A stretch of DNA of 45,258 bases from Candidatus Planktophila sp. (GTDB taxonomy: Bacteria; Actinomycetota; Actinomycetes; Nanopelagicales; Nanopelagicaceae). The position numbers and the translations under genes are program-made. The notes under the pieces are model-generated. The model was not told where the DNA came from. It saw only the letters and a program-made list of their open reading frames with translations, and made no database searches. Numbering within the stretch: the first letter of the stretch is position 1; each line of letters starts with the position of its first letter. Below are positions 43,612 to 45,258 of this stretch, in pieces. The stretch spans positions 1-45,258 of the forward strand of contig SHVG01000004.1 in assembly GCA_009691145.1 (NCBI GenBank), read 5' to 3'.

Positions 43612-44103
43612 TTATCTGAAGTTCGTAAATTGAACTGCGAAATCCCAACCACCATCTTTCACCATCGCCATGGTCTCTTGCAGGTCATCACGGCTCTTTG
43701 ATGTAACACGAAGCTCATCACCTTGAATCTGAGTCTTGACAGATTTAGGACCTTCATCGCGGATTTTTTTTGCAATTTTTTTGGCGTTCTCCGTTGAGAT
43801 GCCTTCCTTTAAAGGCGCAGCAATCTTATAAATCTTTCCAGATAAAAATGGCGCACCGGCATCCAGATGCTTGAGTGAAACTCCACGCTTAATCATCTTG
43901 TCTTTTACTACATCAAGGGCGGCCTTAGCGCGCTCTTCAGTATCTGCCTCGATTAAAATCTTTTCGCCCTCTAACTCAATCTTGGATCCAGTATTCTTAA
44001 AATCAAAGCGAGTATCAATTTCACGGATCGCTTGATTTATAGCGTTATCGAGCTCCATACGATCAATCTTGGAGGTTACGTCAAAACTTGCATCTGCTGC
44101 CAC
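43612..44103 (-). CDS. yajQ: YajQ family nucleotide-binding protein
   Basis: A 163-residue cytoplasmic protein of the YajQ (DUF520) family. The opening [20 protein letters not shown] and the end [14 protein letters not shown] are diagnostic. Homologues bind nucleotides, and a Xanthomonas member binds cyclic di-GMP; the role here is unknown. GTG 44103 is chosen as the start because AAGGAG lies six bases upstream; GTG 44118 would add five residues that include the ribosome site itself. rarD follows directly. Confidence 0.93.
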
Positions 44104-44204
44104 GGTTGGCTCCTTCACTCGAAAAGGCGGTTTGGGCGCCTACGTGCCTAAGGTATCCTTTTCCTTCGTACTATCCATAATTGCCGCACTACTTGTTCGA
44201 CCTT

Positions 44205-44289
44205 GGCGGGTTGCCCGAGCGGCCAATGGGAGGGGACTGTAAATCCCCCGGCTCTGCCTTCGAAGGTTCAAATCCTTCACCCGCCACCA
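44205..44289 (+). tRNA. tRNA-Tyr (GTA)
   Basis: An 85-base class II tRNA. The acceptor stem GGCGGGT (44205-44211) pairs with ACCCGCC (44279-44285), followed by discriminator A and an encoded CCA (44287-44289). The anticodon stem GGGGA/TCCCC frames the loop CTGTAAA with anticodon GTA at 44239-44241. A long variable arm follows, as expected for bacterial tRNA-Tyr. The T arm is GAAGG-TTCAAAT-CCTTC (44262-44278). It is the last background-composition feature before the AT-rich patch. Confidence 0.97.
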
Positions 44290-44366
44290 AAGCGGTGACG
44301 TGAATTCAGTTTAGAACACTGGATCTACGTCACTGATAGTAGTCACTGGTTGCCGTAACTTTCATT
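44290..44366. repeat. Small repeats after tRNA-Tyr
   Basis: This 77-base gap holds an inverted repeat, GTGACGT (44295-44301) and ACGTCAC (44327-44333), part of a longer imperfect stem. CACTG occurs three times at near-even spacing: 44317, 44331 and 44344. There is no U-run to make a standard terminator. The spacer could be a transcript end, a protein-binding site or a recombination scar. No gene is visible. Confidence 0.4.
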
Positions 44367-44606
44367 TTAAGCAGTTTCTATAGTCGCATAAGGATCGCCA
44401 GGCGCTACTTCATCATCAATTTTTACAAGAAATTCAAGAATCTTTCCAGCAACAGGTGATTCCACGTCTATTGTTGCTTTATCAGTTTCTACCGAGAGTA
44501 AAATGTCTCCTGTATTAATCTGCTGTCCAATCTCCGCCTTTATCTCAATGATGAATACAGAATTAACATTTTCTCCTACTCGCGGCATCTTGACTTTAGT
44601 GAGCAT
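44367..44606 (-). CDS. Stand-alone lipoyl/biotinyl carrier domain
   Basis: A 79-residue protein made of a single biotinyl/lipoyl hammerhead domain. The modified lysine is in the hairpin VETDKATIDVESPVAG, which is the lipoyl form (DKA) and not the biotin form (MKM). Such domains normally form the N-terminus of E2 acyltransferases of 2-oxoacid dehydrogenases; here the linker and catalytic domain are absent. ATG start with GGGGAAA about seven bases upstream, so it may be a functional free carrier. It follows the broken CoA-transferase by 23 bases on the same strand in an AT-rich patch. Confidence 0.8.
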   Translation of the reverse strand: MLTKVKMPRVGENVNSVFIIEIKAEIGQQINTGDILLSVETDKATIDVESPVAGKILEFLVKIDDEVAPGDPYATIETA

Positions 44607-44629
44607 GATTCATTTCCCCTATTTCTCAA

Positions 44630-45034
44630 TTAGGCAATCGTTTTATTGTTCTTTAACACTTCGATATGACTTAGACTTAACCCTAAAATATCTTGAAGAA
44701 CAGCACTTGTATGCTCTCCAAGAGTTGGTGCGGTTTGAGGCTCTATATTTTCGGTAGCTGTAAATCGAATTGGAGAGGCTATATTGGGGATATATCCAAT
44801 TCCTGCTTGATTTTTAATATGGAATATTGGATTTTCTGAGGAAGCTCGTGGGTCGTTCTTTAAAAGATCTTTGAATGTTTGATATTTAGACCAGCTCACC
44901 TTGAATTCTCTAAAAACTTTACTCACCTCTGACAGGCTCATATCCCTAATAATTGGTTCGATAATACCTGCTATTTCGCGTCTGAAAAAATATCGTTGGC
45001 TCTCGTCATCAAAATTTACAGCTTCTTTATTAGT
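44630..45034 (-). pseudogene. CoA-transferase family III fragment (C-terminal)
   Basis: An open frame of 134 residues after an in-frame TAA (45037-45035) reads NFDDESQRYFFRREIAGIIE, then a segment with VSWSKYQTFKDLLKNDPRAS, then TLGEHTSAVLQDILGLS. These are C-terminal blocks of CaiB/BaiF-type CoA-transferases, closest in my recollection to the 2-methylfumaryl-CoA isomerase subgroup. The family has about 400 residues, so the N-terminal two thirds with the catalytic Asp are missing. An ATG at 44941 could start a 103-residue product, but it would lack the active site. GC is about 35-38%, well below the flanks. Confidence 0.7.
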
Positions 45035-45046
45035 TTAGTCAATGGG

Positions 45047-45075
45047 TTGACTGGAGTTATTCCGTCGCCTAGCCT
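45047..45075 (+). promoter_or_regulatory. Promoter of glyoxalase-family gene
   Basis: TTGACT at 45047-45052 and TAGCCT at 45070-45075 are separated by 17 bases, the best -35/-10 pair in the window. The start of transcription would be near 45082, giving a leader of about 30 bases that contains the G-run (45101-45105) before TTG 45112. It sits where composition returns to background after the AT-rich patch. Confidence 0.55.
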
Positions 45076-45111
45076 AGGGATTGTTAGGTGGGCTTCACCA
45101 GGGGGCATGAA

Positions 45112-45258
45112 TTGGCGCAGATAACGAAGGCGCATCACACAGGTATTTCTGTGCGATCGCTGCAAGAATCTACAAAGTTTTATAAGGAACTCCTAGGGTT
45201 TGAAGAAGTATTTTCCTGGAATCCACAAGCTGAATACATCGGCGTCCTCACGGGGTAT
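45112..45258 (+). CDS. VOC/glyoxalase family protein, N-terminal fragment
   Basis: The first 49 codons of a gene cut by the window end. The translation includes ITKAHHTGISVRSLQESTKF and YKELLGFEEVF, the first beta-alpha-beta unit of the vicinal oxygen chelate (glyoxalase/dioxygenase) superfamily, with a potential metal His at the start (HHTGI). The start is TTG 45112 with a G-run about six bases upstream; GTG 45088 in the same frame would add eight residues. Members include lactoylglutathione lyase and methylmalonyl-CoA epimerase; this piece is too short to choose. Confidence 0.72.
   Translation, partial: MAQITKAHHTGISVRSLQESTKFYKELLGFEEVFSWNPQAEYIGVLTGY

Follow-up and report, generated by a model that had tools for sequence, protein, structure and literature searches.

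The 757 bases that follow tRNA-Tyr at positions 44290-45046 of the window, which is the whole 45258-bp contig G000:C19 of a 1.08-Mb MAG with 79% completeness, are probably what remains of a catabolic gene cluster of LacI type, most of it now deleted, that once filled a hypervariable slot 3′ of the tRNA gene. The pieces retained are a lipoyl gene, the C-terminus of a CoA-transferase, one operator palindrome and the start of a glyoxalase gene. An earlier note, made from the letters of the window, had proposed a decayed island or the scar of one. The comparison with relatives bears this out: they hold a full cluster of about 11 kb in the same interval, the window keeps two collinear pieces of it, and the locus is variable. 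The stretch is thus an ordinary genomic-island remnant at a variable locus and represents no new kind of element.

Composition and retained genes

The GC content of positions 44290-45046 is 37.8%, about 5 standard deviations below the contig mean for windows of 757 bases (48.6%, sd 2.2) and the lowest among 1781 such windows sampled along the contig. GC recovers to 0.515 at positions 45035-45102, and the AT-rich stretch ends about 200 bases before the contig end. It is therefore evident that GC drops after tRNA-Tyr and then returns to background, as the earlier note had described. The low GC does not stand as a sign of decay, since the intact copies in relatives are also AT-rich (39-43% GC): their transferases have 41-43% GC, their lipoyl genes 39-42% and their whole tRNA-to-glyoxalase intervals 41-43%. 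AT-richness through pseudogene decay was accordingly rejected, and the low GC appears to be mostly inherited, as a property of the cluster when intact. The transferase fragment (0.366) is somewhat lower in GC than the full gene (0.41-0.43). These values show that low GC beside a tRNA gene can be native to a cassette and need not indicate decay.

The lipoyl ORF (44367-44606, minus strand) encodes a stand-alone lipoyl-domain protein of 79 amino acids, matches Biotin_lipoyl PF00364 in full length (E 5e-17; the alignment reaches the last of 73 profile positions) and carries the lipoylation motif ETDKA. It is 67-81% identical to its counterparts in G246, G160, G253, G212 and G233, where the gene adjoins an intact CoA-transferase, and it keeps 48 of 51 invariant sites. 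We considered whether the ORF is a broken E2 and rejected this reading because relatives carry the same stand-alone gene, of 78-80 amino acids. The "orphan lipoyl domain" of the earlier note is, by these alignments, a complete gene retained from the lost cluster.

The same note's CoA-transferase fragment was confirmed as such. Positions 44630-45034 (minus strand) encode the C-terminal third of a CoA-transferase of family III, 2-methylfumaryl-CoA isomerase-like, which matches CoA_transf_3 (PF02515) only at profile positions 265-366 of 366 and TIGR04253 at positions 272-400 of 403. About 272 N-terminal residues are absent and about 134 C-terminal residues are left. The TIGR04253 cut-off of 725 bits is missed both by the fragment (97.6 bits) and by an intact relative (431.7 bits). 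Full-length homologues with open frames of 411-416 codons occur in five relatives, which are diverged, the fragment being about 50% identical to their transferases. All 134 codons of the fragment are open, with zero stops. Among 48 sites that are invariant in the five intact homologues, the fragment keeps 44 (92%), and the intact genes keep 94-100% in the same test. The dN between the fragment and its relatives is 0.40-0.48, compared with 0.08-0.56 among intact genes, with dS saturated and no rate ratio claimed. What is left is still constrained coding sequence, with no stops and near-normal conservation, and the truncation therefore looks recent.

Besides G000, 10 of the 135 genus genomes match the fragment (E 0.001), five of them strongly, and in none of the matching genomes was the same truncation found. 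A scan of viral contigs gave no relative of the fragment, and a viral origin was rejected on this ground. A search of the named genomes with the fragment returned zero matches; with the intact transferases it returned two relatives, both Actinomycetota MAGs of one series (UFOp-RH-20apr16-71 and UFOp-RH-14apr17-219). Genome size, base composition and these names suggest a freshwater actinobacterium of the Nanopelagicales type.

The intact cluster and the junction

In G212, G233 and G246 the interval from tRNA-Tyr to the glyoxalase gene measures 10.7-11.7 kb, compared with 822 bases in the window, so that the larger island that the earlier note had suggested looking for does exist in relatives. 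The order in three loci (L093, L096 and L097) is yajQ, tRNA-Tyr, lipoyl gene, full CoA-transferase and glyoxalase; the pieces in the window match the intact cluster in order and orientation and are collinear with it within 0.8 kb. As assigned by Pfam and NCBIfam, the G212 cluster reads from the tRNA as PsiE, LarA-like, PfkB, SDR, lipoyl, CoA-transferase 2 (2-methylfumaryl-CoA isomerase-like), MaoC, CitE-like lyase, CoA-transferase 1 and MaoC, and then, divergent, as an enolase-superfamily dehydratase, LacI, glyoxalase, a muconolactone-isomerase-like protein, E1 beta and E1 alpha. Four genomes (G212, G233, G246 and G160) combine the lipoyl gene with a full-length transferase and the glyoxalase; in G160 the cluster lies about 15 kb off, on the opposite side of yajQ, and G253 has the transferase and the lipoyl gene on a short contig. 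Both genes were seen intact at this place in 3 of the 135 genus genomes (G212, G233 and G246), which falls short of the genus-wide presence that the earlier note had named as speaking against its reading. Among 80 loci gathered by the transferase, the lipoyl gene was seen in only three actinobacterial MAGs (L150-L152).

The inferred deletion junction, at positions 45030-45036, is where transferase homology ends and the glyoxalase-promoter region starts; we placed it by the alignment of the fragment together with the glyoxalase upstream regions of L093, L096, L097 and L101. Transferase homology runs out at about 45034, and at the same position starts a LacI-type operator-like palindrome, TTTAGTCAATGGGTTGACTGG (45034-45054, plus strand), which has one match in the window against 0.01 expected. 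In L093 and L097 the palindrome stands before both the glyoxalase and the divergent operon, and L095 has one copy of it. The first gene past the junction is the 5′ part of the glyoxalase gene (45112-45258, plus strand; TTG start by homology), broken off by the contig end and 90-94% identical to G212, G233, G246, G160 and G044; the glyoxalase of an intact relative matches PF00903.

Only about 220 bases separate the junction from the contig end, G000 is the one genome in which it was found, and a mis-join or a skipped stretch in this 79%-complete MAG would look identical to a deletion. The cluster might then be intact or otherwise arranged in the population, and the assembler would have fused two collinear pieces close to where the contig stops. 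Contigs are prone to end here: within the genus, a break in or at the end of tRNA-Tyr is seen in at least seven further MAG contigs (G054:C5, G024:C13, G038:C3, G059:C110, G035:C43, G023:C33 and G193:C40), as expected where strains differ. However, the two pieces stand in the correct order and orientation, there is no run of N at the junction, and no direct repeat of at least 12 bases across it could explain a false join. The missing genes were also not found elsewhere in the assembly: DNA search detected none of the other cluster genes in G000, protein search detected no CitE-like lyase, and a second CoA-transferase was not found either, these absences being soft because the MAG is incomplete and DNA search may miss diverged genes. 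We consider an assembly artefact unlikely, though it deserves to be kept in mind, and favor a genuine deletion.

The retained pieces could also be read as a reduced working unit, in which the lipoyl carrier is kept together with the glyoxalase and with E1 alpha and beta beyond the contig end, divergent from one operator, and only the CoA-transferase part is dead. The intact lipoyl ORF, with its motif and invariant sites, the operator kept between two divergent remnants, and the position of E1 beta and E1 alpha after the glyoxalase in relatives agree with such a unit. Yet the presumed user of the operator, LacI, is no longer encoded in the interval, the contig stops short of E1, and the conservation may simply reflect how recent the event is. 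A working unit of this kind is on balance rather improbable; if it were true, genome streamlining would have reduced the pathway to its oxidative-decarboxylation part.

Under the preferred reading, a residue of a mostly deleted cluster, this lineage would have lost sequence to either side of the lipoyl gene, in an event that looks recent. One loss, of about 7 kb, would start within the CoA-transferase, extend as far as the glyoxalase operator and have taken most of the transferase, MaoC, the CitE-like lyase, the other CoA-transferase, MaoC, the dehydratase and LacI. Illegitimate deletion is the likely route at this inner junction, where any repeat seen is at most a few bases long. In the other, the roughly 3 kb that separated the lipoyl gene from the tRNA would have been removed or replaced. 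Given the divergence of the intact relatives, the ancestral sequence and the breakpoints can be given only approximately.

Among the papers searched, none was found to describe this locus or a cluster that combines lipoyl, CoA-transferase, citrate-lyase and MaoC genes. The intact cluster resembles the genes of the 3-hydroxypropionate bi-cycle and of mesaconate conversion (Mct, Meh or Mch, Mcl; homologues in Chloroploca and Accumulibacter) in having homologues of the CoA-transferase (TIGR04253, 432 bits), of the MaoC hydratases (PF19315) and of the CitE/HpcH lyase. It differs in that its scores fall under the NCBIfam equivalog cut-offs (432 versus 725 bits for TIGR04253) and in that further components are present, namely LacI, an enolase-superfamily dehydratase, E1 alpha/beta and the stand-alone lipoyl protein; the window itself holds a fragment only. 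In L093 (18-11175), the stand-alone lipoyl protein is seen beside E1 alpha/beta, MaoC, CoA-transferases and the CitE-like lyase in one intact cluster.

A variable slot at tRNA-Tyr and the question of integration

The boundary of the variable locus is tRNA-Tyr(gta), predicted by ARAGORN at positions 44205-44289 (plus strand). Its neighbor on the stable side is yajQ (DUF520; 43612-44118, minus strand; PF04461, E 1.8e-56), a gene present in 139 of 151 family genomes. The genus-wide conserved block consists of yajQ and tRNA-Tyr, and in most genomes the alignment stops at the tRNA 3′ end. Sequence after the tRNA varies between genomes: among 40 loci (39 from relatives and the window, each with at least 900 bases after tRNA-Tyr), we counted 22 families of first genes. 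The slot 3′ of tRNA-Tyr is a variable locus, a hot spot with the same flank and different content between relatives. The window's own spacer between the tRNA and the lipoyl stop (44290-44366, 77 bases) has no counterpart found in relatives, and blastn alignments to them end at about 44353-44363. A weak hairpin in the spacer (44293-44335; fold z -2.3) was equaled by 8 of 200 shuffles.

We then asked about integrases, given that the earlier note had pointed to tRNA 3′ ends as integration points. Copies of the 3′ half of tRNA-Tyr, which begin in the anticodon stem or loop, are present in G000:C31, G041:C6, G039:C54 and G051:C37, and tRNA-Tyr is probably an attachment site for some elements. In G039:C54 (L131, 7-1416), a tyrosine integrase gene (PF00589) lies about 210 bases from the copy, which is likely the end of an integrated element. 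In this respect the genus resembles hosts of tRNA-targeted integrative elements, which carry a tyrosine integrase and an attR formed by the 3′ part of the tRNA; the stretch in the window differs from these elements in having neither integrase nor repeat.

The copy in G000 itself (C31, L103, 7111-7162, minus strand) begins at the anticodon stem and directly cuts short an xseA-like gene after about 80 codons; it resembles the remnant of an attachment site or a point of rearrangement. C31 could not be identified as the far end of a tRNA-Tyr island, as its neighbor xseA is not near tRNA-Tyr in any relative examined. The same contig (L103, 104-6264) encodes an amidohydrolase, a phosphorylase-like, a RuBisCO-like, a split transketolase and an isomerase-like protein, an arrangement that resembles a salvage cassette for methylthioadenosine or purines. 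We further noticed a reverse transcriptase ORF (PF00078) in G041:C6 (L130, 2-1455), following an ORF with an Asn-rich C-terminus and near the 3′-half tRNA-Tyr copy at 1718-1773, which is possibly a diversity-generating retroelement. G176 (L147, 699-2940) has two full tRNA-Tyr copies about 2.1 kb apart, with differing genes between and beyond them.

The 3′-half copies, one of them in G000 and one beside an integrase, might encourage another view, in which an integrase-mediated element inserted at tRNA-Tyr and the stretch, with its two gene pieces, is the scar. No part of the tRNA 3′ end is repeated near 45050, as the earlier note had already observed, or elsewhere on the same contig; the copy on C31 is the only other one in the genome. 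Although PF00589 tyrosine-recombinase matches occur in 24 genomes, none is near tRNA-Tyr where both positions are known; no integrase was found near tRNA-Tyr in the cluster-bearing relatives, where the note had suggested looking for one, or in 13 complete (single-contig) genomes, whose matches are far away. Moreover, the two pieces belong to metabolic genes whose order is unchanged. Such a scar is therefore very improbable, and an integrase-type insertion of this cluster, as judged from the genomes compared, is not supported. The claim about the tRNA 3′ end thus probably holds for some other elements of the genus and finds no support for this cluster.

For the residue of a mostly deleted cluster, the likely form of turnover beside the tRNA would be cassette exchange, with the conserved yajQ-tRNA-Tyr side as its anchor. 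A related case is fGI1 of 'Candidatus Actinomarinales', a tRNA-associated flexible genomic island of marine actinobacteria with cassette exchange and partial tRNA repeats (PMC7771536). Both systems belong to streamlined aquatic actinobacteria, have a tRNA gene at the edge of a position whose content differs between relatives, and show partial tRNA copies at the ends of some insertions. They differ in that fGI1 has envelope-sugar genes and five tRNAs, whereas the locus here has one tRNA-Tyr and a catabolic cluster, with no tRNA repeat at the remnant.

The intact cluster, with its stand-alone lipoyl protein, E1 and mesaconyl-CoA-type enzymes, may merit more study than the remnant. The locus illustrates how, in an actinobacterial genus with small genomes, the slot 3′ of tRNA-Tyr varies: catabolic cassettes appear to come and go there, and one has probably been partly deleted.
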